NCBI GenBank assembly: GCA_028284705.1
Contig: JANQRE010000013.1
Location: 62,001-126,000 of the forward strand
Origin: Paracoccaceae bacterium
GTDB taxonomy: Bacteria > Pseudomonadota > Alphaproteobacteria > Rhodobacterales > Rhodobacteraceae
DNA length: 64,000 bases
Direction: 5' to 3'
Positions 26,832 to 39,708 of this stretch are shown in pieces. Each line of letters begins with the position of its first letter. Position 1 is the stretch's first letter. Below the pieces are notes generated by a model. That model saw only the letters and a list, made by a program, of their open reading frames with translations, did no database searches and was not told the origin of the DNA. Position numbers and translations under genes: made by a program.

Positions 26832-28328
26832 ATGATTTGGTCTTTCACAAAAATTCTGGTTTTCGTCTGTGTCGTCGTGGCCGCGACAATCGGCGTCGGC
26901 ATGCTGCTGGAAACCAGCGGTGGCGTGCGTATTTCCGTTGCCAACACTGAATATTCGCTCAGCCCGCTGACCGCTCTGATCGCCCTGGCGGCGTTGCTCC
27001 TCGCTTTCTGGCTGACCCTGAAACTGCTCAATCTGCTGATCGCGGTGTTTCGCTTTCTCAATGGTGATGAGACCGCGATCTCCCGCTATTTCGACCGTAA
27101 CCGGGAGCGAAAAGGGTTTGAAGCTCTGGCGGATGGCCTGATGGCGCTGGCGTCGGGCGAAAGCCGCACCGCGATGGCGAAAGCGGCCAAGGCGGAGAAA
27201 TATCTCAAGCGCCCGGAACTGACCAACCTGATTACCGCGCAAGCAGCAGAAGCCTCCGGCGACCGGCGCAAGGCGGAGCAGACCTACAAGAAGCTTCTGT
27301 CCGATGAACGCACCCGGTTCGTCGGCGTGCGCGGGATCATGAAACAGAAGCTCGATGATGGTGACACGGATACCGCACTGAAACTGGCCGAGAAGGCCTT
27401 TGCGTTGAAACCGCGCCATGAGGAAACGCAGGACGTCTTGTTGAAGCTGCAAGCCGGGGCCGAGGATTGGAGCGGCGCGCGCAAGACGCTGAACGCGAAG
27501 CTGAAACATGGCAGCCTGCCGCGGGACGTGCATCGTCGCCGCGACGCGGTGCTGGCCCTGTCGGAGGCGAAGGACGTCATGGCGGATGGCAAATCCATCG
27601 AGGCGCGGGAAGCCGCGATTGAGGCCAACCGCCTGTCACCCGATCTGGTGCCGGCGGCTGTCGCGGCTGCGCAGGGTTACATTGAGGCAGGCAAGCCGCG
27701 CTATGCGACGCGCGTGTTGAAGAAAGCCTGGGACGCTCAACCGCACCCCGATCTGGCGGCGGCCTTTGCCGCGATTGATCCCGATGAGAACGCGCAAGCC
27801 CGGATCAAACGCTTCCGGCAATTGACCCGGTCGAAACCGGATCACCCCGAGACAAAAATGCTGCTCGCGGAACTTCATATCGCAGCGGAAGACTTCCCAG
27901 AGGCGCGCCGCTCTATTGGCAATCTGGCGGAGACCGACCCCACTGCGCGCAGCGTCTCCATCATGGCCGCAATCGAACGCGGCGAAGGGGCTGAGGATCA
28001 CATCGTGCGGGCCTGGCTTGCCAAAGCGCTCACGGTCAGTCGCGGTCCGCAATGGGTCTGTGACAACTGCCAGCATATCCATGCGAGCTGGGCGCCGGTC
28101 TGCCAGAATTGCGGCAGTTTCGATACGCTGAGCTGGAAGGAGCCGCCGCAAGCGGAGACATCGCTGCCCTCGGGCGCGGAAATGCTGCCGCTGATTGTCG
28201 GAGCGATCCAGGACAAGTCCGAGGACGTGGCTGAGGAGACACCTGAGGACGTGTCTGAGGCACCCGAAGCCGAGGTCGTCGACGCAGAAATCGCACCCGA
28301 ACCAGAGGCGAAAGCAGAGGCCAAATAG
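26832..28328 (+). CDS. hemY: HemY-type TPR membrane protein with C-terminal zinc ribbon
   Basis: A 498-residue protein. Two N-terminal membrane helices (residues about 5-25 and 42-64) match the HemY_N domain. TPR-like helical repeats follow (for example AEKAFALKPRHEETQ, EANRLSPDLVPAAVA, RQLTRSKPDHPETK). Near residue 410 comes a four-cysteine element, CDNCQHIHASWAPVCQNC, a zinc-ribbon/rubredoxin-like knuckle, then an acidic tail rich in E and A. This HemY is not the protoporphyrinogen oxidase of Gram-positives that shares the name. It lies 12 nt after the mitofilin-like gene. Confidence 0.9.
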   Translation: MIWSFTKILVFVCVVVAATIGVGMLLETSGGVRISVANTEYSLSPLTALIALAALLLAFWLTLKLLNLLIAVFRFLNGDETAISRYFDRNRERKGFEALADGLMALASGESRTAMAKAAKAEKYLKRPELTNLITAQAAEASGDRRKAEQTYKKLLSDERTRFVGVRGIMKQKLDDGDTDTALKLAEKAFALKPRHEETQDVLLKLQAGAEDWSGARKTLNAKLKHGSLPRDVHRRRDAVLALSEAKDVMADGKSIEAREAAIEANRLSPDLVPAAVAAAQGYIEAGKPRYATRVLKKAWDAQPHPDLAAAFAAIDPDENAQARIKRFRQLTRSKPDHPETKMLLAELHIAAEDFPEARRSIGNLAETDPTARSVSIMAAIERGEGAEDHIVRAWLAKALTVSRGPQWVCDNCQHIHASWAPVCQNCGSFDTLSWKEPPQAETSLPSGAEMLPLIVGAIQDKSEDVAEETPEDVSEAPEAEVVDAEIAPEPEAKAEAK

Positions 28329-28371
28329 GGCTTTCCCGGAAAGGGATGAGATGCTAGAGACCGCGCCGGAA

Positions 28372-28410
28372 GCCGCTGTAGCTCAGATGGTAGAGCACGT
28401 CATTCGTAAT
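28372..28410 (+). pseudogene. tRNA-Thr(CGT) 5' half, truncated after the anticodon loop
   Basis: These 39 nt are identical to the first 39 nt of the intact tRNA-Thr at 28507 except for one base in the D loop (A for C). The match stops just past the anticodon loop and the rest of the tRNA is missing. The copy sits at the position right after hemY and is the expected scar of site-specific recombination inside the tRNA gene. Confidence 0.85.
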
Positions 28411-28467
28411 TAGCGGGTCTGTCTGCGATTGACGTTTGAAGCCAATGAGTTAGGAAAGGCACATTGT

Positions 28468-28489
28468 GATTAGTAGGGCTCTAGTAGGG
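28468..28489 (+). repeat. Left arm-site-like repeat pair
   Basis: GATTAGTAGGG-CT-CTAGTAGGG: two TAGTAGGG units in the same orientation with an 11-nt period, one helical turn. The same two units occur in swapped order at 38527-38546. It lies between the half tRNA and the intact tRNA. Confidence 0.6.
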
Positions 28490-28506
28490 CCAATCCAGAG
28501 AAGAAT

Positions 28507-28582
28507 GCCGCTGTAGCTCAGCTGGTAGAGCACGTCATTCGTAATGATGGGGTCGTAGGTTCAAGTCCTATCAGCGGCACCA
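28507..28582 (+). tRNA. tRNA-Thr (anticodon CGT)
   Basis: The 76 nt fold as a complete cloverleaf: acceptor GCCGCTG/CAGCGGC, D arm GCTC..GAGC, anticodon stem CGTCA/TGATG with loop TTCGTAA (anticodon CGT, reading ACG), T arm GTAGG-TTCAAGT-CCTAT, discriminator A and an encoded CCA. It is the functional copy at this locus; the copy upstream is only a half. Confidence 0.97.
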
Positions 28583-28980
28583 TTCTTCCTGAAAATCAAA
28601 CCCAAATAGATCGGTACGGCCCATAGCTGCCGTTGACTGTGTTGATCCGATGCTGCAGCGGCAGCCCGCATTCCGGTCATTCGCTGCGGTGAGAAGCCTA
28701 GAGATCATCGTACTCCCTTGTTGCTGGTTCTCAAGTAGATCGGCACCCACTAGAATTAAGCTTCCGCACTTGATTTCATCAGCAGTCGGCACAATTGCTA
28801 ATTTAGCTGGCTACGGCCGAATGGTAGCAAAGGCGGGAGGCGCGGAGACCTCAACTATCGCAGCGGCTCTCGCCTTTGCGTTAGCTGTCGTGTGATCCTA
28901 TACGCTGCCCAAGCAGCGTAACAGGCCCCGCATTGATTCGACAGGTCAGGTTCAACAGACGAGGACAAAGTGGCTGGCCC
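28583..28980. other. Non-coding stretch between tRNA-Thr and the hsdR remnant
   Basis: About 400 nt with no convincing gene. The only structure I see is a perfect 8-bp hairpin, TACGCTGC-CCAA-GCAGCGTA (28901-28920), 60 nt past the hsdR stop codon and without a T-run. A short plus-strand frame (28650-28895) has no ribosome site and no family features. Confidence 0.5.
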
Positions 28981-31197
28981 CTAAGTGACCTCATTTCTTG
29001 CCATGAGCTCTGCCTGAGCAATGATTAGCTTGGTAGCTGATTCCTGTGCGTCAGGTGGATATCCATATTTTGCGAGCAGTCGACGCACCGTGCGACGCAT
29101 ATCGGCTCGAACTGTATCGCGCTGTGTCCAATCCAAAGTCGCCTTTCGCTTGATGCTCTCAGCCAACTCCCTAGCGATTTGCTTGAGTGTTTCATCCTGC
29201 ATCACTTGCTTAGCAGACGAGTTATCGGCCAACGCCTGATAGAAGGCGATTTCCTCTTCTGTTAGGCCAGTTTCATGGCCTTCAGCAATCGCCGACGAAA
29301 TGGACTTTGCTAAGCCGATTAGCTCTTCGATGACCTGTGCCGTTGAAATCGCTCGGTTGGAATAACGGATTAGGACGTTCTCAAGTGACTCTCGAAATGA
29401 CCGCGATTGTACGATGTTGACCTGTTCACGAGTTCGAATTTGATCGCTCAACAGCTTTTTGAGCGTCTCAAGCGCTAGATTTTTCTGTGGCAGCGCCGCG
29501 AGGCGATCAAGGAACTCATCTGACAAAATACCAACGTTTGTGTTTGGTAATCCGGCTACTTCAAAGAGATCGATCACGCCGTCAGTTCGAATTGCACCTG
29601 AAATGACTTGATTAACTGCTGGTGAGCTTGCGCTAGATCGAGTGTGGTTTTCATCGTCGAACCGCTTGCGGATCGCAGAGCGGACATTCTGATAAAAGGC
29701 CAAATGGTCACGGACTGCATTGGTCTCGGGGCGTGGCACGGCAAGTGCAAACGCCTTCGACAAACGGACAGTCATTTCGTCAAATCGTTTCTTGCCGTTC
29801 TCCTTTTGAAGAACGTAATTGGCACCATCGATAATTGCTCTAAGCTGATCTGCATCTGAACCTGCGACAAGGCTCATATAATCGAAACCACCAAAGAAGG
29901 CCGTTAACTCTTCCGCATGCCGCAGCATGAGGGGCACTGCCTGATCCTGAATGTTCTCGACAGGTTTTCCTTCCCCACCAGCCTGAGTGTAGGTCTGAAT
30001 TGCGTCACGAAGCTGGTCGGCGATACCCAAATAGTCCACGACTACGCCGCCTGGCTTGTCACCAAAGACACGGTTCACCCTGGCGATGGCCTGCATGAGG
30101 TTATGCCCGGCGAGCGGCTTGTCTAGATACATTGTGTGAAGGGAAGGACAGTCGAAGCCCGTCAGCCACATGTCGCATACGATCACGAGATTGAGCGGAT
30201 CGGCATTGTCCTTCAGACGAAGCGCCAGTTTCTCACGACGTGTCTTTGTCCGTCCATGATACTTGGTCCGTTGTGTGCGTTCTTCGAACTGCTCGACGGT
30301 TTCTTCGTAGACTTGATTCCCGGCGGCATCTCTAATTGGCTTCCCCGTTGCGTCCTTTTTCACCCGCCGCGGTGTAACGTTTGAATCCATTACGACCTTG
30401 ATCGCGCCTGCATCGTCTTCATCCGAGTGCCAGTCAGGCCGGAGCGACGTGATCTTATCGTAAAGGTTCATGCAGATATCGCGGCTCATACAGACGATCA
30501 TCGCCTTCCCATCAATCACCTCTGATCTCTGATCGAAGTGGCTGATGATTTGAGAGGCTAAGATCTCAAGACGTTTGTCTGCGCCAGCAAGCATCTCTAG
30601 TGGAACTGTAATGTCAGGATCGACGGACGAACCCGCGTCGTCGTCATCTGCTGCTTCTGCGATCAGCCTTTCAGCCTCTGTTATCCCCTCATCGTCTGGA
30701 ATTAGCTTGATGAGTTGCATCTCGTAGTAAATCGGGACCGTAGCGTTATCGTCGATTGCTTGTTTTATGTCGTAGATATCGACATCGCTTCCAAAGACAC
30801 CGCGTGTAGATCGGTCACCACCCTCAACCGGAGTTCCTGTGAATCCAACAAAAGTTGCATTCGGATGGTTTTCTCGCATCCAACGCGCACCGCCTTTGAG
30901 AAAACCGTATTGGCTACGGTGTGCTTCGTCCGCAAGAACCACAATATTTGAACGGTCACTGATGGGCTCCGCACGCTCTTCGAACTTCTGGATAGTCGTA
31001 AAGATCACGCCGCCCGACGCGCGGTTGAGTTTGCTGGAAAGGTCTTCCCGATCCGCAGCTTGCTCCGGGTCCTGGCGCAAGAGTGCGCGTCCATCAGCAA
31101 AAGTGCCGAAGAGCTGGCCGTCGAGATCATTGCGGTCGGTGACAACGACAATAGTCGGGTTCTGAAGCGCTGTGGCGGATCCATTAGGGCGTCTCTG
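28981..31197 (-). pseudogene. hsdR: Type I restriction enzyme HsdR, 5'-truncated remnant
   Basis: The open frame of about 739 codons encodes only the C-terminal two thirds of an HsdR translocase. Homology begins at about [20 protein letters not shown] (31170) and an in-frame TAG lies at 31198-31200. Present are the motif II box [25 protein letters not shown] (motif III), [15 protein letters not shown] and [14 protein letters not shown] (motifs V-VI), and the helical C-terminal coupling region. Missing are the N-terminal nuclease domain and the Walker A motif, so cutting and translocation are not possible. No hsdM or hsdS is nearby. It is a relic of a former defence cassette. Confidence 0.88.
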
Positions 31198-31620
31198 CTA
31201 GGTTGGCCAAACCGACCCATAGCGCAGGGTCGATGCATGGGCTAACAGTAGATGGTACGAGGAAATCCGTCTATCGGCTTGCTAAAGATTGTCTTCTTCG
31301 CGGAGGCCTGGTTTATGGAAATCGAATTAACATAATGGACCTTACGCGCCCGCGGTGAAGGTCCGGATCGAACGCATTCTAACCCACGCTGCACCGTGCA
31401 TGAATGTCAGCGATGCGCAGAAAGCGGACTTTGCAAAGTCGCTAGCGAATGGCGGCAGTGAGCCCAAAATGACCAATGCCGCGTCGACGACGAACGGCTG
31501 CTATCCAAAATGGGCCGACTGCTGAACGCCTACTCAAAAAGACAACATAACATTCTGGCTTGTTTGTTATGTTGTGGAAGTAAACGGCTAGGTGTTCCAG
31601 CATGTCCTACGAAATCAGAC
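31198..31620. other. Non-coding junction region
   Basis: About 420 nt between the broken 5' end of hsdR and the 3' end of the kinase gene. I see no gene; a plus-strand frame of about 60 codons (31350-31525) has no start signal or family features. The abrupt loss of hsdR homology marks this as a deletion or insertion junction. A perfect inverted repeat lies at 31542-31575. Confidence 0.5.
31542..31575. repeat. 11-bp perfect inverted repeat
   Basis: ACAACATAACA and TGTTATGTTGT are exact reverse complements separated by 12 nt. The repeat is AT-rich with no T-run, 46 nt past the stop codon of the minus-strand kinase gene. It may be a weak terminator, a protein-binding site or a mobile-element end. 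Confidence 0.7.
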
Positions 31621-33120
31621 TTAGCACATCTCATCTAGTTCGGAATACATTGCCACAGAGTTCTGATACAGTTTTTCGAATACAGGGGCCATTGCATCAT
31701 ATACTTCAACCCATCGGTCGTCAGGTCGAATGGTGGTTTGGATTTTGACCATGTTAGTGGCTGCTTCTTGCAGATTGGCCGCGTTTCCCGAAGAAACTGC
31801 CATCAACACCGCAGATCCAATTATTCCACATTCAAGTTCCGTGGGTACAGCATACTGGACGTTGAACATTGAAGCCTTGATCCTTAGCCAAATCTCCGAC
31901 TTCGCTCCCCCGCCAGCAGCGATAATTTGCTCAGGCCTTCGATGTCCGCTGGGGAGACTGTCGAGCTTTCTTCGGATAGAGAACGCAACGCCTTCAAGGA
32001 TAGACCGGTGAATCTCGGAAAGACAGTGTTGGGAGTTGAGTCCAAAGAACTGAGCCCTTGCGTTGCTCAACTCGGCCTCACGCTCGCCGTTCAAGTATGG
32101 TAGAAATAATAGTCTGTTGGAACCAGGAGCGGCACGCGAAGCAATCTTGCTCAGCTCCCCTAAACTGAGGGTGTCTTCATGGAAGGCGCGCTTAGCCCAT
32201 CTCACCGCATCTCCTCCGTTATCGACAAGTGTCATACTCCCCCACACGCCATTTGGTGTCAGGATGTTAGCAATCCGCTCGTCGACAATGGGCAGCTCGT
32301 TAAGTAGAGTAACAATTGAGGAAGAACCAGTTACATCCGAACCCTGCCCAGATGACGTTGCGCCAGAACCTAACAAAGCCATGGGATAGTCTCCAGCACC
32401 TACCAATACGGGAATGCCATGGGATATCTGTAGCGCATCAGCTACTTCAAAACGCAATCCACCGAGTATCGTTGACGGGGAATTCAAAGGAGGGAGCATT
32501 TTCTCTTCGATGCCAAATAGAGAGCAAAGCTCGACCGACCATTCCTTCGTTTTCCAGTCCATGAGAAAACTCAATGAGCCTTCAGTGTAATCCTGTGAAA
32601 TCTCGCCTGTGAGCCTAAAATTAATCCAGTCTTTTGGCATAAGTACGGCAGCCGTGCGTTCTAGTATCTCTGGGTGATTCTCCCTAAACCACGCTAACTT
32701 AAATGCTGGCCAAGCAGTCGATGGCGAATTCGCCGATAACTGCAGACACAGTTTCTTTGAAGCATGGGTTGAGAAGCGTTCCACCTGTAGCTTTGTTCGC
32801 TTGTCGTTCCATAGCGGCACGAAATCGCATGCCAACTGGCCATATTCATCAATCAAAACAGTTCCGTGCATTTGACCGCATGTGCATATGGCCGCGATAC
32901 GACTTCTCGCACCTTCAAGCTGGCTGAGAACTTGAACCAATGACTTTAGGGTCGAATGCCACCATTTACCTGGGCTATCCTCACTCCAGCCAAGCTGCGG
33001 CACAGTTGGCTCGTGCGGCAAATGATCATAGGCCAAGATGGATCCACTGGTGTCTACGATCGCGGTACGTATGCCTCCGGTGCCCACATCGATAGCAAGA
33101 TAGAGATCGCGTTTCATCAT
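31621..33120 (-). CDS. FGGY-family carbohydrate kinase (xylulokinase-like)
   Basis: A 499-residue sugar kinase of the ASKHA fold. The N-terminal phosphate loop is AIDVGTGGIRTAIVDTSG, CTCGQMHG corresponds to the substrate-binding segment, and VGAGDYPMALLGSGA and AAGGGAKSEIWLRIKA are the FGGY C-terminal signatures. Overall it is closest to xylulokinases, but the sugar cannot be told. The start is preceded by AAAGGGGC, and two adjacent ATG codons (33120/33117) are possible. It is divergent from the glmS operon with a 268-nt shared gap in which I see no clear operator. Codon use and GC are those of the island. Confidence 0.88.
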   Translation of the reverse strand: MMKRDLYLAIDVGTGGIRTAIVDTSGSILAYDHLPHEPTVPQLGWSEDSPGKWWHSTLKSLVQVLSQLEGARSRIAAICTCGQMHGTVLIDEYGQLACDFVPLWNDKRTKLQVERFSTHASKKLCLQLSANSPSTAWPAFKLAWFRENHPEILERTAAVLMPKDWINFRLTGEISQDYTEGSLSFLMDWKTKEWSVELCSLFGIEEKMLPPLNSPSTILGGLRFEVADALQISHGIPVLVGAGDYPMALLGSGATSSGQGSDVTGSSSIVTLLNELPIVDERIANILTPNGVWGSMTLVDNGGDAVRWAKRAFHEDTLSLGELSKIASRAAPGSNRLLFLPYLNGEREAELSNARAQFFGLNSQHCLSEIHRSILEGVAFSIRRKLDSLPSGHRRPEQIIAAGGGAKSEIWLRIKASMFNVQYAVPTELECGIIGSAVLMAVSSGNAANLQEAATNMVKIQTTIRPDDRWVEVYDAMAPVFEKLYQNSVAMYSELDEMC

Positions 33121-33388
33121 TTTGCCCCTTTGAATATCCGCCACGGATGGCGAATGACGAATAGACGGCAGCGGCGCGGAGCTCCGAGGTAGCTCACCTT
33201 CTCAATCACACTGGACAAGCCCGAGATTTGCAACACGCCCTACACGTTGTCCTAACCCTTCTTGGGTCTGAGATTTTCATTTTTATCAGAGGGTTAGCCT
33301 CCTACTGCGAGTAGTTTGCCGTCGTTTGCACCTGGTTGGCAACCCTCGTCGAATACCTTAAGTTAGGATCACACGAGAGGATCGAAGT

Positions 33389-33970
33389 TTGGAAACAGTC
33401 ATACAGTTGATAGAGGCGTTGGTGTGGCCTGCCACGACCGTAACCTGCCTTTATATGTTCCGCTCAGATATTCGCGGGTTTGCTCAGCGAATTTCCGAAG
33501 CCAAGTTTGCTGGTATCGAACTTAAGGCGGATAAGGAGGCTCAGGAAGCATACGTGAGCGCCCTCAAGGTAGCAGCTACGGAAATCGAAGACGCAGAGTT
33601 TGAGGAAATCGAGAAATCTGAAGACAAAACTGAAGCGGAAATAAAGCGGATCGGTCCCGTCAACGCGCTCAGACTTAAAGAAAGTGAGATTAGAGCAGAC
33701 GTGGAGGAGCTAGCAGTGAAGTTTTGCTCTATCCAGCAGTCGGACTTGTCTTCTTATAGCACGCCTAAGCTTCTGTTCTCCTTGCGAACGAAGCAACCTA
33801 GGATGCAAGCAGAACTAGACTCAATTGCAAAAATTATTGCTGCAATTGAAGAAGCAAACTCGGAGCGAAACATCGACACGAGTACAACAAAAAGTCTGAT
33901 CGATGCATCAAACTTTGCGAGAGCGGCCTTGAAGTCGAAGGCAAGGAAAATTGAGGAGAGTGAGGCATAA
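33389..33970 (+). CDS. Membrane-anchored coiled-coil protein of unknown function
   Basis: A 193-residue protein starting at a TTG behind GAGAGGATCG. One N-terminal transmembrane helix (IEALVWPATTVTCLYMF, about residues 8-25) is followed by a long charged helical region rich in E and K (for example EIEDAEFEEIEKSEDKTEAE). No domain is recognised. The stop codon overlaps the glmS start (TAATG), so the two proteins are made together, and a membrane scaffold or sensor role for the pathway is a reasonable but untested guess. Low GC compared with the flanking chromosome. Confidence 0.72.
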   Translation: METVIQLIEALVWPATTVTCLYMFRSDIRGFAQRISEAKFAGIELKADKEAQEAYVSALKVAATEIEDAEFEEIEKSEDKTEAEIKRIGPVNALRLKESEIRADVEELAVKFCSIQQSDLSSYSTPKLLFSLRTKQPRMQAELDSIAKIIAAIEEANSERNIDTSTTKSLIDASNFARAALKSKARKIEESEA

Positions 33971-35787
33971 TGTGTGGAATAGTTGGGGCGTTGGCGTCGA
34001 AACGTAATGCAGTACCTGATCTCTTCGAAATGTTAAGCCAAGTCGAGTACCGCGGATATGATTCCGCCGGAATTTCTACGGTCGACGAGATCGGTTTAAC
34101 CCTTCGAAAGTCCAAGGGGATGTTGGATATTCTTCGAAAGAAGGTTGATGAATCTCCCATCAGTGGTGAGGTTGGCATCGGGCATACCCGGTGGGCAACC
34201 CACGGTGAGCCATCAGACAAAAATGCACACCCACATTCCTCCAAGTCTGGTGGGGTTTCAATTGTCCACAACGGAATCATAGAAAACTATGCAGCTATAA
34301 AAGAGGAGCTCAGTGGGGAGGGTGTTCACTTTTTTTCGGAAACAGACTCCGAAGTGATTGCTGCATATACACAGAAACTCTTAAATGAAAACGCCGAGCT
34401 TGAGCCGGAACGACTGGTTTCGCAACTCACTTCAAAGCTAGAGGGTGCATATGCTATTCTTGTGCTTCTGCCCGGATCCGGAGGTAAGATTATAGCAATC
34501 CGGCAAGCTTGCCCTTTGAATTTTGTTGTGACCGAGCGGGGAACTTTTATCTCATCTGATATTTCGTCACTTTCCATTTATGGAAGAAAGATATCAATTT
34601 TGGAGGATGGCCAGGCCGCGGTATTTGTGGGTAGTTCCGCTTCAGTGATTGATTTTCAAGGACATCCGTCGAATCCAACGACAATTGAAGTTGACTGGGA
34701 CACTTCTAAGGCCAGGAAGGAAGGTTTTGACACATTCTTGCGAAAGGAAATCCAAGAAGAACCTGGAGCACTAGGATCGTTAGTGGCAGCGGTCACATCG
34801 CAAGTGCACGATTTTAGAAGGTTGCTTGACCAAATTGATCCGGACTCGGTTCTTTTCTTGGCATGCGGTTCAGCATCCTACAGCTGCCAATTCGCCCGAT
34901 CTCTCTCGCGTTGGATGCGAGTACCTGTTCATGTAGATGCGGACATCGGTTCAGAGTTTCGTTACAATCCAAGCCTGATCTCGGAACGCACACTGGTTGT
35001 AGCGGTTAGTCAATCAGGGGAGACGGCGGATACACTACAATCTGTCAAGCTGGCAAGAGACTCCGGGGCCAAAGTGGTATCTTTCATCAACGTAGTTGGC
35101 TCGTCTTTGGAGAGAATGAGTGACTTTGTGTTTAGGCTTTCAGCGGGCCCTGAAATCGCGGTTCCTAGTTCGAAGGCCGTTGTCAACCAATTCGCAGCTA
35201 CCAATTTTGTTGTTTCAATGCTTGTCGAGTCAGGCTTGAAGGGGCATGAGGATTGGAAGAATGGAGCCAATCTTGCTGTCGATGCGATCTCGAGAATCCT
35301 TGAGATGGAGGGGGACTTCCAAAAAGTGGCTGAGAAAGTCTCGGGCTTTCAAAGCTCTTTTGCACTTGGTCGCGGTCTTGACTTTCCAACGGCGCTTGAA
35401 ATGGCGCTTAAGTTGAAAGAAACTGCGTACATGCATTGCGAACCTATGTTCGCAGGAGAGTTCAAACATGGTAGTATCTCTCTTGTAGAGCGTGGTATGC
35501 CAGTGTTTGCATTTCTTGGCGATGAGCGGGTTGTTCAGAAGTCAATTTCGAATATGTCAGAAGTCAAAGCGCGAGGTGCTAGACTTTTCGTTTTTGATGC
35601 CGTCGGCGTGGACAAGAATACCCTCGCGGACTTGGGCGACTTTATTCAACTTCCAAAACTGCCTGCTCAATTCGCCTCACTTGTTCAATTGGCGGCTGTT
35701 CACTTGACTAGCTATCACTGCGGAATTCTTCGAAACGTGTCCGTCGACAGGCCTCGAAATCTGGCCAAATCCGTCACCGTTGAATGA
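33970..35787 (+). CDS. glmS: Glutamine-fructose-6-phosphate aminotransferase (GlmS family), island copy
   Basis: A full-length 605-residue enzyme that makes glucosamine-6-phosphate from fructose-6-phosphate and glutamine, or a close variant. The glutaminase domain starts with the catalytic Cys2 (MCGIVGALAS) and has GHTRWATHG and VHNGIIENY. Two SIS sugar-isomerase domains follow, with LACGSASYSCQFAR, SQSGETADT and GRGLDFPTALEMALKLKET, and the C terminus is DRPRNLAKSVTVE as in canonical GlmS. A housekeeping glmS with glmU is expected elsewhere, so this is probably a dedicated paralogue. It is coupled by TAATG to the gene before and by ATGA to the gene after. Confidence 0.93.
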   Translation: MCGIVGALASKRNAVPDLFEMLSQVEYRGYDSAGISTVDEIGLTLRKSKGMLDILRKKVDESPISGEVGIGHTRWATHGEPSDKNAHPHSSKSGGVSIVHNGIIENYAAIKEELSGEGVHFFSETDSEVIAAYTQKLLNENAELEPERLVSQLTSKLEGAYAILVLLPGSGGKIIAIRQACPLNFVVTERGTFISSDISSLSIYGRKISILEDGQAAVFVGSSASVIDFQGHPSNPTTIEVDWDTSKARKEGFDTFLRKEIQEEPGALGSLVAAVTSQVHDFRRLLDQIDPDSVLFLACGSASYSCQFARSLSRWMRVPVHVDADIGSEFRYNPSLISERTLVVAVSQSGETADTLQSVKLARDSGAKVVSFINVVGSSLERMSDFVFRLSAGPEIAVPSSKAVVNQFAATNFVVSMLVESGLKGHEDWKNGANLAVDAISRILEMEGDFQKVAEKVSGFQSSFALGRGLDFPTALEMALKLKETAYMHCEPMFAGEFKHGSISLVERGMPVFAFLGDERVVQKSISNMSEVKARGARLFVFDAVGVDKNTLADLGDFIQLPKLPAQFASLVQLAAVHLTSYHCGILRNVSVDRPRNLAKSVTVE

Positions 35788-36215
35788 CTAGACCCGCGTC
35801 GAAGTTCGAACTCAGCGAGATGCTCGAAAACATCTCAACAGTATCGGTGGACAAGGTCGCAGAGGCTCTTGCTTCTCAGCTTTCCGGCGGTCAGCTAGAC
35901 CCTGAAATTAGTGAGATCTGCCTCAAAATCGCCAACGCATCGGCTCGGCTTCAGTTAGATGAGGGGGCATCAGAAAGTGTTCTCAAAACCATAATGTTTG
36001 GCCGTAGTTTCGCACGTAGCGAGCAGGAGATTGCCGAGCTGGAATTATTGGCTGCGGAGTATTTTGTGAAACGGGGTGAATTTGAGAACGCTTTACAACG
36101 CGTCAAGAGCCTTGTGAAAGTGAGAGAATACTTAAGCAATGAGCTCAGAGTGAGAGCGACAGAACTACAAAAACTAGCACTGGCCCATGAACAAGGAGGC
36201 CCAAAACGTGACTGA
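35784..36215 (+). CDS. Small helical protein of unknown function
   Basis: A 143-residue soluble protein, predicted almost wholly helical. Its C-terminal half looks like a TPR-type pair of helices (EIAELELLAAEYFVKRGEFE, then NALQRVKSLVKVREYLSNEL). It is not recognised as an enzyme. It overlaps glmS by four bases (ATGA) and the next gene by eight bases, which places it inside the operon and suggests a stoichiometric partner of one of its neighbours. Confidence 0.7.
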   Translation: MTRPASKFELSEMLENISTVSVDKVAEALASQLSGGQLDPEISEICLKIANASARLQLDEGASESVLKTIMFGRSFARSEQEIAELELLAAEYFVKRGEFENALQRVKSLVKVREYLSNELRVRATELQKLALAHEQGGPKRD

Positions 36216-37125
36216 CTCTCGACCCGTGCCCGCCTCTTGGTTTCTGGATGAGAGAAATATTGAAGGGACTTTCGAAGCAATAGTACAGGAACTGGAGTCC
36301 AGTTTCTTACCAGACCTAATTGTTCAGATAGCTGATCTCAAATCGCCAGGAGGACTTGTCGTCGGTAATGAAATTCAACGGCGCCTGGGTGCCAATCCTG
36401 GTTTGGTGACAGCGCGAGTAACTAACCGCCACGGCGAGGTTGATCTCATTCGGGAAGTCATCGATGTAGAAGGAAACCCTACGAAACTCCTCAATGAAAG
36501 AATCCTAGTAGTAGACGACGTAGTCTTTTCTGGCAGCACGACAGCAACAGTTATTGAAACGATAAGGCAGATCTACGAAGGTGCTTCGATTGCAGTAACC
36601 GCATTAGTGACGCATTCGGACTTTAATGCTCGTGAAGCGTTTGAGGACGATCACGTTCGGGTTATTTGCCCGAACTCCACACGCGGGCGGAAAGTCAATT
36701 TCCCATGGGGAGAAGTTGGGTGGCAAGGTGTGGTTGTCCATAGCTTTGGCGAAAGCGACATGGTGTGTGAAGTTGTCCGACGGCCTTGGGGTTTCTACGA
36801 AGACTTTGCACAGAACCGTGAGTGCACGGTTAGGGTTCACAGTATTGATCCAGGACATAAATTAAGCCTCCAAAGGCATAAACATAGAGACGAGTTCTTT
36901 GTCATTTTGGACGATGGCGTTGCGTGCACGATCGATCAACAAACTACAGTAGCAACGCAAGGGGATTACTTCTATGTTCCTAGAGGCACCTGGCACAGGC
37001 TTGGCAATCCAACCCGTTCAGTTGCGCGAGCGTTAGAAGTGGCATTTGGTGAATATGATCAAGTTGGCGACATCGAGAGACGAGAAGATGATTACGGGCG
37101 GACAAATGAAGACGGCTCCATTTGA
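36208..37125 (+). CDS. Phosphoribosyltransferase fused to mannose-6-phosphate isomerase-type cupin
   Basis: A two-domain protein of 305 residues. Residues about 1-185 are a type I PRTase of the orotate-PRTase style, with the PRPP-binding signature ERILVVDDVVFSGST near residue 100. Residues about 192-300 are the cupin found at the C terminus of mannose-1-phosphate guanylyltransferase/PMI type II: RPWGFYEDF, LSLQRHKHRDEFF (metal-ligand histidines and glutamate), GDYFYVPRGTWHRLGNPT, GEYDQVGDIERREDDYGR. I know of no standard enzyme with this fusion. The GTG at 36208 is chosen because AAGGAGG lies 8 nt upstream; an ATG at 36187 is in frame but has no ribosome site. Confidence 0.85.
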   Translation: MTDSRPVPASWFLDERNIEGTFEAIVQELESSFLPDLIVQIADLKSPGGLVVGNEIQRRLGANPGLVTARVTNRHGEVDLIREVIDVEGNPTKLLNERILVVDDVVFSGSTTATVIETIRQIYEGASIAVTALVTHSDFNAREAFEDDHVRVICPNSTRGRKVNFPWGEVGWQGVVVHSFGESDMVCEVVRRPWGFYEDFAQNRECTVRVHSIDPGHKLSLQRHKHRDEFFVILDDGVACTIDQQTTVATQGDYFYVPRGTWHRLGNPTRSVARALEVAFGEYDQVGDIERREDDYGRTNEDGSI

Positions 37126-37175
37126 CCAATGATTTTTTGTCTGTCCAATGCTAAATGTGACCGAATTTTTGCATC

Positions 37176-38165
37176 ATGCTGAAAGTCGGCTTGATATCTG
37201 GAACAGGAAGTGGATTGAAGCGGACACTCCCCGCGCTATCCAACAGTAGTATCGCAAGAGTATCAGTTGTTCACGGCAGAGACTTGCCGACATTGAATCG
37301 TATAGCCGACGATTTTAAAGTGGATGTAACAACAAATATTGATTATGTTTTGAGGTCCGACGTTGATCTACTGTATGTTGCTTCGCCTCCAGCACAGCAC
37401 CTGGAACAATTGCGGCAGGTTCATACCTCAGGGCTTCCAATAATTGTTGAGAAACCGCTTTGCCTGACGGCTGAAGATACAGAAGAAATCCGAAAGCTTG
37501 AAGTATCCCAACTGATGGTGGCGCATCACTTGCGGCATCAGGAATCAATGAGAACGATCCGAAGTGTTGTTAGAGATGGGACACTCGGTCCGGTGCGGTC
37601 CGCTGTATTTCAATGGAACTACCTTCTGTCTCCGGAAGCGAAGAACGCCCGTTGGAAAAATGACCTTGCTTTGGGTGGGGCGCACGCCTTATACGACGCT
37701 GGAGTACATCTAGTTGATTTGGCTCAGTTTCTTTTTGGGCTTCCCAAGAGCGTAGAAGCACTCGGTAGGCTTGATGGATACACCGGCAGGTATCCCGATG
37801 TGGTTGCCTCATTAGAGTACGACCGTTTCTTTGTCACTTTGAGCGCGGCAACAAATTCTGATGCAGTGTCCAATGATCTATTCATTCAGTTTGCAGGAGG
37901 TTCCATATTTATTGCGAATGCCTTTTCTGAAACCGCCAGTGAAGAGCTGATCATGCGCTCGGCGGCAGGGTATGATCGGCAGTCATTCAACAAGGTGAAT
38001 CTCTATCGGGCTGAGGTCGAGCAATTCTGTAAATTTCATTTTGTGGGCACGGGTTTACTGGAAACCTCATTCGATGGCACTTCAGAAGATGAGGCAATAG
38101 ATGCAGTACGAATACTCAATGCTATAGATGTCGCATTGAATGATCGGAGACGCTTTCATCTGTAA
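37176..38165 (+). CDS. Gfo/Idh/MocA-family dehydrogenase
   Basis: A 329-residue NAD(P)-dependent oxidoreductase. The N-terminal Rossmann strand is LKVGLISGTGSGLKR (an atypical glycine loop). The family lysine motif is VEKPLCLT, and GGAHALYDAGVHLVD carries the catalytic-region D and H. Members oxidise or reduce sugar or cyclitol carbons, and several act on glucose-6-phosphate-type substrates in amino-sugar pathways. It follows the PRTase-cupin gene by 50 nt without a clear ribosome site; the start is fixed by the beginning of the Rossmann fold. Confidence 0.88.
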   Translation: MLKVGLISGTGSGLKRTLPALSNSSIARVSVVHGRDLPTLNRIADDFKVDVTTNIDYVLRSDVDLLYVASPPAQHLEQLRQVHTSGLPIIVEKPLCLTAEDTEEIRKLEVSQLMVAHHLRHQESMRTIRSVVRDGTLGPVRSAVFQWNYLLSPEAKNARWKNDLALGGAHALYDAGVHLVDLAQFLFGLPKSVEALGRLDGYTGRYPDVVASLEYDRFFVTLSAATNSDAVSNDLFIQFAGGSIFIANAFSETASEELIMRSAAGYDRQSFNKVNLYRAEVEQFCKFHFVGTGLLETSFDGTSEDEAIDAVRILNAIDVALNDRRRFHL

Positions 38166-38674
38166 TTGGCAACACTGTTCGAGAGACAGATGATCTATTG
38201 CTTTGCCTCTCGCCAAACGCTGAATGGCTGGCATAAACGCTTGTGGAGTCCGTTCCCATGCTCAAATTTAGCACAGGCCTAACACAATAGAGTTTCAGCC
38301 AAACAAGATCAACGGCTTAACCCGCTTTGGCGCGCACTGAAAATCAACTGCTCCATGGTTGTTAACAGAGGAGCCTCTATGCCTTTGGCGATGTAACAAC
38401 TGAAGCGATATCACCAGAGCAGACACAGATCGGCAAAGCGCGAACGGCCGCTTAGTCCCGCATAGTGGCCATTTAGGTAGACCGCAGCGCCGGGCAACTT
38501 TGCGCCTCGCTCGAGTCCGGTTTTCCCTAGTAGGGGATTAGTAGGGGAGACGCTTGATTTCTTCTTCAGGGAACGCAGGTGCATGGAGAAGACAGTGGCG
38601 GAATTTTGTGGTGGGCACAAAGTATTGCCGGAGAACGCGTTGCTGCGCGCCAATTAGATTATGCTGCTGGGTGT
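38166..38674. other. Non-coding right edge of the island
   Basis: About 500 nt without a supportable gene on either strand. It contains the second TAGTAGGG repeat pair and marks the return to higher-GC chromosome. No integrase fragment and no second tRNA piece could be found by eye. Confidence 0.55.
38527..38546 (+). repeat. Right arm-site-like repeat pair
   Basis: CTAGTAGGG directly followed by GATTAGTAGGG, the same two units as at 28468-28489 in swapped order and again with an 11-nt period. Confidence 0.6.
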
Positions 38675-39628
38675 TCAAAGACCGGTGTCGTAGCTGGTCA
38701 GTTTAAAACTGTCGATCTTAACCAAGTCGCGCATCACCGCAAACTCCTCGCTCCAGCTTTGCGCCTGAGCGTTTAACGTCTCCATATCCGGGCGGTTGGT
38801 CCAGTAGTTCACGCACAGCCAGGTGCCATCCTCACCCTGTCCGACCGTTCGGTAGAGCAGCGTGTCATTCTGGTTCATCTTCTGAGTAATCGCTTCAAAG
38901 AACGCGCGTATTTTGGTGGGGTCAGCTCCATCCGCCTGTTCGAACAGGACGATCTCGACATGGCGTGGGACCCGTAGATCATCCGCACCGACCTTCTGGC
39001 TTTGCCCACCCGACCGCCGTTTGAGCGGCATCTGCAGCGCAGTTGGCCGCGCCTCCGGTTGCGCAAGGGGCTGCCCGTCAATTGGGCGCGCACCAAAGTA
39101 GAGATGACCCGCAGAGACGTGCAGCACTTCGAACTCAGTCGTGGGTGAATTTGCCGCCACGCCCATGACCGAGCACCCGGTCTGGAAAATGTCCTGCTCG
39201 AGGCCCACCGACCACGCTTCGGAGCCACAGGCACCAGCCTCCGCCGTTTGGAGAAATTCAACGAACCCCTGCATCCGCGGCGTCACGGTCAGGTAGTCAT
39301 TGACAATCAGATCAACCTCCTTCGCGCCATCTGCAACATCTGAGGGCCCCCGCACGATGACGTCACCGCCAAACTTCAGCTCGACCAACGGCATCGAGCA
39401 GCTGGGATCGGTGTAGGTGGTGAAATGTGCGTCAATTCTGCCCGGAGTGAAATTAATCGAGCGCCTTAGATACCAAGGGGCGACACCATCCCGCGCTGCT
39501 TGAGGTCTCAGCTCGCACGCTATGCTCTCCCAGGCTCCGTTCAGGTCTATCTCGGTCTCTTGTGCAGCAACTGGCGTTGTCGCGGCGACAAGCGCAACGG
39601 CGCAGAGAAAGTTTCTGGAATGCGTCAT
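38675..39628 (-). CDS. Secreted two-domain protein (APCDD1-like N part, dimeric-barrel-like C part)
   Basis: A 317-residue exported protein with signal peptide MTHSRNFLCAVALVAATTPV, cut after AAQ. The first half (GAWESIACELRPQ, APWYLRRSINF, TYTDPSCSMPLVELKFGG, then three more cysteines) resembles the APCDD1 domain, a cysteine-containing barrel seen in secreted proteins; I am only moderately sure. The second half, from about residue 220 (VPRHVEIVLFEQADGAD onward), looks like a dimeric alpha/beta barrel (ABM/EthD type). The start is supported by GGGAGACACC. It is divergent from a LysR gene that probably controls it. Confidence 0.65.
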   Translation of the reverse strand: MTHSRNFLCAVALVAATTPVAAQETEIDLNGAWESIACELRPQAARDGVAPWYLRRSINFTPGRIDAHFTTYTDPSCSMPLVELKFGGDVIVRGPSDVADGAKEVDLIVNDYLTVTPRMQGFVEFLQTAEAGACGSEAWSVGLEQDIFQTGCSVMGVAANSPTTEFEVLHVSAGHLYFGARPIDGQPLAQPEARPTALQMPLKRRSGGQSQKVGADDLRVPRHVEIVLFEQADGADPTKIRAFFEAITQKMNQNDTLLYRTVGQGEDGTWLCVNYWTNRPDMETLNAQAQSWSEEFAVMRDLVKIDSFKLTSYDTGL

Positions 39629-39708
39629 GGTGGTGTCTCCCAATGGATGGCAAAGCCAGAGTGCCAGAGGGATAGCCTGTGCATCAAATCGATGGTTATT
39701 ATGTATCT

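Follow-up and report, generated by a model that had tools for sequence, protein, structure and literature searches.

Operon structure and composition

We analysed a window (the whole stretch of DNA under study) of 64,000 nt from a Paracoccaceae bacterium (assembly GCA_028284705.1, contig JANQRE010000013.1), in which five plus-strand genes at 33389-38165 form a single operon. The genome, of 4.0 Mb, probably belongs to a roseobacter, as its nearest relatives suggest. These genes encode P1 (33389-33970, 193 aa, TTG start), a paralogue of the aminotransferase GlmS (33970-35787, 605 aa), P3 (35784-36215, 143 aa), P4 (36208-37125, 305 aa, GTG start), and P5 (37176-38165, 329 aa). The overlaps are 1 nt between P1 and the GlmS paralogue (TAATG junction), 4 nt between the latter and P3 (ATGA junction), and 8 nt between P3 and P4, followed by a 50-nt gap before P5. 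The 3' end of P3 contains AAGGAGG (36193-36199, plus strand), 8 nt ahead of the GTG of P4, which is likely the ribosome-binding site of the latter. The same coupling of four genes, with a dehydrogenase after 50 nt, had been described in an earlier reading made from the letters alone (hereafter, the sequence-only reading), and the open reading frames (ORFs) and their junctions confirm it.

The operon genes, with P4 counted as two halves, have the G+C content of 0.48-0.50 and the codon fit of 0.48-0.53. In six resident reference genes, the respective values are 0.57-0.64 and 0.66-0.77, the codon-fit index having been built from the same six genes; in two right-hand neighbours outside the index set they are 0.58-0.59 and 0.60-0.66. 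The G+C content of third codon positions is also lower in all five operon genes than in the six resident ones, and 2-kb blocks between 28 and 39 kb have the G+C content of 0.48-0.53. Judged by its composition, the operon looks foreign and was probably acquired laterally. A promoter scan yielded three candidates, with 5.5 expected, a terminator scan yielded four, with 5.3 expected, and a scan of 28300-38700 for RNA families yielded a tRNA only.

Enzyme families and active-site motifs

The GlmS paralogue passes the equivalog threshold of the NCBIfam model TIGR01135 (558.9 bits, cut-off 418.05), carries glutaminase and SIS domains, and is colinear over its whole length with the solved GlmS 4amv. 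The genome also encodes a GlmS of its own, to which this second copy is 39% identical, and both retain the N-terminal Cys, the SQSGET loop, and the C-terminal KSVTVE, which have catalytic roles in GlmS. In plasmids, 809 records matched the paralogue, 316 of them at query coverage of at least 80%. The top-ranked plasmid relative (45.9% identity) is found on a Ruegeria pomeroyi megaplasmid, where it has other neighbours, lies near murA, and lacks the operon partners; this gene (locus L026, 11968-13791) adjoins a RES/Xre pair. At E 1e-133, the paralogue matched only its own genome among 398 genomes of the phylum and 248 genomes of the family (the genome samples of this and the other recurrence searches overlap one another), and none of the six stretches matched in viral contigs was a relative.

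P5 belongs to the Gfo/Idh/MocA family (PF01408, 53.9 bits, gathering score 24) and retains the family motifs EKP (residue 92) and DxGxHxxD. Close relatives of P5 are lacking in the searched samples: the best 15 of 458 matching plasmid records show 25.6-27.9% identity to it, and a search of 91 genomes of the class at E 1e-25 returned only the protein itself.

P4 combines in one chain a type I phosphoribosyltransferase (PRTase)-like domain and a type II phosphomannose isomerase (PMI) cupin, the latter recognised above the cut-off by hidden Markov models (HMMs). The cupin domain (36784-37110, plus strand) scores 73.7 bits with PF01050 (gathering score 23.6) and shows the type II PMI motifs LSLQRHKHRDE, HR, and EDDYGR. 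The signature of these isomerases is QxHxHR with a later His and DDYGR, all of which are present in P4. His263, Asp294, and Arg298 of P4 are invariant across 18 viral-contig cupins; the QxHxHRDE columns of this alignment are invariant by construction, as its rows were fetched with that pattern. The ManC/AlgA model TIGR01479 matches the C-terminal domain only, with 73.4 bits against the cut-off of 372.95 for the bifunctional enzyme. Stand-alone PMI-type HRDE cupins recur in viral contigs, and related cupins were found in 12 phage records, eight of which are Synechococcus phages, some of the proteins being annotated as mannose-6-phosphate isomerases.

The PRTase-like half of P4 carries the phosphoribosyl pyrophosphate (PRPP) motif VVDDVVFSGST (36508-36540, plus strand, residues 101-111), with the required order of hydrophobic residues, DD, four residues, G, any residue, and T. 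Its PF00156 score is 25.5 bits when taken alone and 24.3 bits in the full protein, with the gathering score of 26.3. In the name of PRTase-cupin fusion given by the sequence-only reading, the PRTase part agrees with the motif but falls just short of the Pfam cut-off. PDB matches to this half are weak, none being better than E 0.05, and are headed by HGPRT and PyrR. The second residue ahead of the motif's Gly is Phe in P4, Tyr in PyrR, and Asp in the HGPRT match as well as in a COG2236-like PRTase (L017). This Asp of HGPRT-type enzymes is catalytic, and, as Phe stands at its place, P4 is unlikely to be a purine-salvage PRTase. An AlphaFold model of P4, made from 19 rows, of which 18 are cupins, has the mean pLDDT of 62.3 and is confident for the cupin only, with block values of 90-98 at residues 191-280 and low confidence in the PRTase part.

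P1 has a hydrophobic N-terminal segment followed by an Ala/Glu/Lys-rich, helical-looking stretch. It had been called a membrane coil protein; the helical-looking region agrees with that, but the membrane segment is borderline (mean Kyte-Doolittle value of 1.41 at residues 3-21). P1 gave nothing above the cut-off in Pfam or NCBIfam and nothing in PADLOC. Its residues 1-44 align with an annotated 182-aa protein of a Shewanella baltica plasmid, and the TTG start is supported, since the alignment begins at residue 1 of that protein. The Shewanella plasmid gene (locus L174, 5001-5549) directly precedes a gene of a TrlF-family ATPase. P3 resembles tetratricopeptide repeat (TPR) proteins by low scores, the best PADLOC TPR model yielding 24.9 bits (E 2.2e-6); it has no matches in plasmids at E 1 and no relatives in viral contigs by exact patterns.

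The coupling of the genes together with the retained active-site motifs suggests that the operon is a working unit. One way to understand it is a spare or resistant hexosamine supply, where the GlmS paralogue would add glucosamine-6-phosphate or protect against GlmS inhibitors, the other proteins would be regulators or passengers, and the PRTase would be a PRPP sensor as in PyrR. The retained catalytic motifs of the paralogue, its R. pomeroyi relative near murA without these partners, and the Phe in the PRPP motif of P4, nearest to the Tyr of PyrR, are consistent with this explanation, and natural GlmS inhibitors are known (PMC3535389). Still, the overlap of four genes suggests a joint function, no sign of inhibitor resistance was seen in the sequence, and, for the one inhibitor cluster considered from PMC3535389, an efflux pump rather than a second GlmS is credited with self-resistance. 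Overall, we consider a hexosamine supply unlikely.

Recurrence searches and the surrounding island

The sequence-only reading had proposed a dedicated cassette and had named recurrence of its genes in unrelated genomes as support for a conserved system. A conserved cassette is not supported: none of the searched genomes, plasmids, phages, and viral contigs yielded another PRTase-cupin fusion at the thresholds given below, the version with a separate PRTase and cupin not having been searched systematically. At E 1e-3, full-length P4 matched 44 of 61 relatives (own genome included), and outside its own operon every match lay within one half of P4, namely the cupin, or the PRTase part in the case of two genomes. 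At E 1e-20, there were matches in three of 398 genomes of the phylum, one being the genome itself and the other two having the cupin alone. In the phylum of a Bacteroidetes metagenome-assembled genome, one of 345 genomes matched full-length P4, again by the cupin alone. A stand-alone relative of the cupin is 41% identical over residues 190-298 of P4. In plasmids, 343 records matched P4, none with 80% coverage, and exact patterns retrieved six stretches from viral contigs, none of them a relative. In 56 viral-contig loci fetched by the LQxHxHRDE pattern, phmmer at E 1e-3 matched cupins only, with no matches to the PRTase half, GlmS, P1, P3, P5, or the FGGY kinase described below.

The PRTase half at E 1e-3 matched ten of 385 genomes of the class, own included. 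The weak matches in the other nine genomes were rejected as kin of P4; read by eye, they are ordinary PRTases, which we take to be APRT, OPRT, PRPP synthetase, PurF, and the COG2236-like PRTase. The neighbourhoods of two weak matches (L017 and one from the relatives) contained no other relative of the operon proteins or of the FGGY kinase. No matches to the PRTase half were found in plasmids at E 1e-3 or in phages at E 1e-2. Among 84,980 genomes, one per species, six exact 8-residue patterns matched 58 stretches, none of them a relative, and one pattern from the motif of the PRTase half matched 95 stretches with one relative (L127). The latter is, on reading, a PyrR-like protein of 158 aa without the cupin; its motif has Phe, although only Phe and Tyr were allowed at this position by the search pattern. 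Both scans used narrow patterns that may miss the window's own kin and are no proof of absence. All component enzyme families are already known, and the PRTase-cupin fusion is rare in the searched samples. The sequence-only reading had named no described pathway with this gene set, and searches of open-licence papers for the set also returned none.

The island harbouring the operon starts behind hemY at tRNA-Thr(CGT) (28507-28582, plus strand), the probable integration site. A 48-nt fragment of the 5' part of tRNA-Thr (28372-28419, 92% identity), starting 135 nt upstream of the intact tRNA, is probably an integration trace. The island also contains a truncated type I restriction gene hsdR (28981-31080, minus strand), where the PADLOC model is matched only from position 347 of 1029. 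Pieces similar to hsdR, read by eye, lie upstream in other frame(s), the whole decayed region occupying 28981-31300 of the minus strand; the N-terminal third is lost or out of frame, and, judging by this structure, hsdR is a relic. The low G+C content, tRNA-Thr, and incomplete hsdR bear out the island with a restriction relic suggested by the sequence-only reading. A 16-base inverted repeat (28885-28900 and 33364-33379) was dismissed as an island feature, being near chance by a rough estimate.

At E 1e-60, hemY is present in 20 of 21 genomes of the genus, own included, and its downstream side (up to 16 kb) was compared for 16 of the 19 others. ARAGORN, applied to 15 of these stretches with a 3.8-kb one omitted, placed tRNA-Thr near hemY in 12 cases and about 7 kb away in one, and found none in two. 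The operon, the FGGY kinase, and hsdR had no match at E 1e-20 in any of the 16 stretches, and of eleven window proteins at 38.7-53 kb only one was matched, with 35-41% identity in six stretches. The hemY/tRNA-Thr site is variable, and synteny does not fix the right edge of the island. At the DNA level, region 33380-37180 has no relatives among E. coli genomes, and the only relative of 28400-38700 in plasmids is a single 42-base stretch. To the right of the operon, a protein encoded at 38675-39643 (minus strand) scores 34.3 bits, above the cut-off of 27, with PF14921 (APCDDC), a domain whose name refers to Adenomatosis polyposis coli down-regulated 1.

An xylulokinase-like FGGY sugar kinase is encoded divergently from the operon (31621-33117, minus strand). 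Its FGGY_N score is 180.9 bits (cut-off 28.8), and the score with the XylB xylulokinase model TIGR01312 is 325.8 bits, under the cut-off of 380.25. The nearest plasmid relative, 55.5% identical and annotated as two pieces, lies in an ABC-transporter operon of a Marinovum plasmid. A relative in a congener (55% identity; at E 1e-80, two of 41 genomes matched, own included) stands among ORFs of similar sizes. The sequence-only reading had joined the kinase to the operon. The gene and its position are as described, but position is the only link, and the membership is doubtful, since the nearest relative belongs to a sugar-uptake operon. As for the names of enzymes, those of GlmS, the cupin, the Gfo/Idh/MocA dehydrogenase, and the FGGY kinase hold, all having HMM scores above cut-offs.

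The 41% identical relative of the P4 cupin sits in a sugar-utilisation cluster (L169, 175-5237), which, from reading the translations, we take to encode an MFS-type transporter, an ROK-type kinase, and isomerase-like proteins for mannose catabolism. Together with the Marinovum operon and the congener relative of the kinase, this cluster is consistent with a sugar-catabolic remnant, whose FGGY kinase, PMI cupin, and Gfo/Idh/MocA dehydrogenase would formerly have taken part in the uptake and breakdown of a sugar. However, GlmS is anabolic, the kinase is on the opposite strand, and no transporter was identified by HMMs among seven island proteins, which makes such a remnant improbable.

A defence-linked metabolite had also been suggested by the sequence-only reading. 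In a defence or conflict module, the PRTase domain would be an effector and the sugar genes a source of the metabolite. The island is shared with the broken hsdR, the TPR match of P3 was obtained with PADLOC, the N-terminus of P1 resembles the plasmid protein encoded right before the TrlF-family ATPase, and P4 has PADLOC matches to PRTase effectors with 16.4 bits and less (best E 0.0014; PADLOC has no curated cut-off). Yet the P4 matches cover the PRPP-motif region common to such enzymes, the P3 match may be one that helical repeats give in general, and intact biosynthetic enzymes are atypical of defence modules. Little was found for this suggestion beyond the island shared with the decayed hsdR and the low PADLOC scores, and it seems very improbable.

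Possible function and known systems

Both GlmS and type II PMIs use a ketose-6-phosphate, and, given this shared chemistry, the simplest function that would unite the operon genes is an amino-sugar branch. Tentatively, we favour the interpretation of the operon as a small-molecule branch of sugar-phosphate metabolism that arrived by lateral transfer. The cupin half of P4 would convert aldose and ketose phosphates into each other (mannose-6-phosphate and fructose-6-phosphate or a near analogue); the GlmS paralogue would aminate the ketose phosphate with glutamine, yielding a 2-amino-aldose phosphate; and P5 would oxidise a hydroxyl of this compound or of a derivative, a Gfo/Idh/MocA enzyme fitting the oxidation of an amino-sugar product. 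The PRTase half of P4 would either phosphoribosylate an acceptor other than a purine or act as a sensor by binding PRPP. A membrane anchor for the proteins may be provided by P1 and a scaffold by P3. All substrates, the order of steps, the PRTase reaction, and the roles of P1 and P3 are what we infer.

Several observations weigh against this interpretation. The PRTase domain is under the Pfam gathering score and is modelled with low confidence. The nearest named NCBIfam model of P5 is D-xylose dehydrogenase, with 62.2 bits against the cut-off of 350. In the cupin relative with 41% identity, SHSGRGE stands in place of the RHKHRDE of P4; as it lacks HxHRDE, this relative is poor evidence for the activity. 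The reactions of the cupin and GlmS could serve an ordinary hexosamine supply, and the scanned proteins yielded neither a phosphatase nor a glycosyltransferase or an exporter. Finally, no recurrence was found, so the context in other genomes gives no support to a joint pathway.

As no recurrence was found, nor any glycan or transport gene among the scanned proteins, we rate a truncated glycan locus almost as probable as the small-molecule branch. In this case, the operon would derive from a locus for a surface glycan (capsule or O-antigen), from which it was severed on entering the tRNA-Thr island, keeping the genes for sugar precursors and losing those for glycosyltransferases and export. GlmS paralogues, PMI cupins, and Gfo/Idh/MocA dehydrogenases are known to occur in surface-glycan loci, and the island is decayed, as hsdR shows. 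PRPP-using glycan ribosyltransferases also exist, according to PMC11127046. On the other hand, the operon genes are intact and tightly coupled, and the HMM scan of fifteen proteins, a subset of the window ORFs (seven island proteins plus eight from flanking genes, six on the right side and two on the left), revealed no glycosyltransferase, flippase, polymerase, or nucleotidyltransferase. The fragment of a known polysaccharide locus that the sequence-only reading had set against its own proposal was therefore not recovered among these fifteen. Moreover, prototypical glycan PRTases pair with an HAD phosphatase domain, according to PMC11127046, and the seven island proteins have no HAD match at E 1. 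If the operon is a glycan-locus fragment only, it matters little beyond the reshuffling of sugar genes by islands.

A further and rather improbable possibility is that P4 is a new bifunctional enzyme, which would isomerise a sugar phosphate and transfer phosphoribose from PRPP onto the amino-sugar phosphate made by GlmS; P5 would oxidise the product, and P1 and P3 would hold a complex at the membrane, the outcome being a ribosylated amino sugar of an undescribed type. If P4 does transfer phosphoribose to a sugar, ribosylated sugars would be made from PRPP by a route that lacks the HAD phosphatase known from described systems, and this would open the way to an unknown metabolite. Overall, the sequence-only interpretation is partly supported, being right about the enzyme identities, the operon, and the island.

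Compared with known systems, the GlmS paralogue resembles the GlmS transaminase (isomerising) in its full length, motifs, and equivalog score, and differs in being a second copy with 39% identity. P4 shares the C-terminal cupin with ManC/AlgA, but has the PRTase-like domain instead of their nucleotidyltransferase. PMI cupins of viral contigs stand alone, whereas that of P4 is fused to the PRTase-like domain. With PyrR- and HGPRT-like type I PRTases P4 shares the PRPP motif, while differing from them by the Phe, the score under the cut-off, and the cupin fusion. The glycan phosphoribosyltransferase acting with an HAD phosphoribose phosphatase, as presented in PMC11127046, would have similar chemistry if P4 uses PRPP, a likeness by description and not by sequence; unlike that system, the proteins scanned here include no HAD phosphatase or acceptor-glycan genes.

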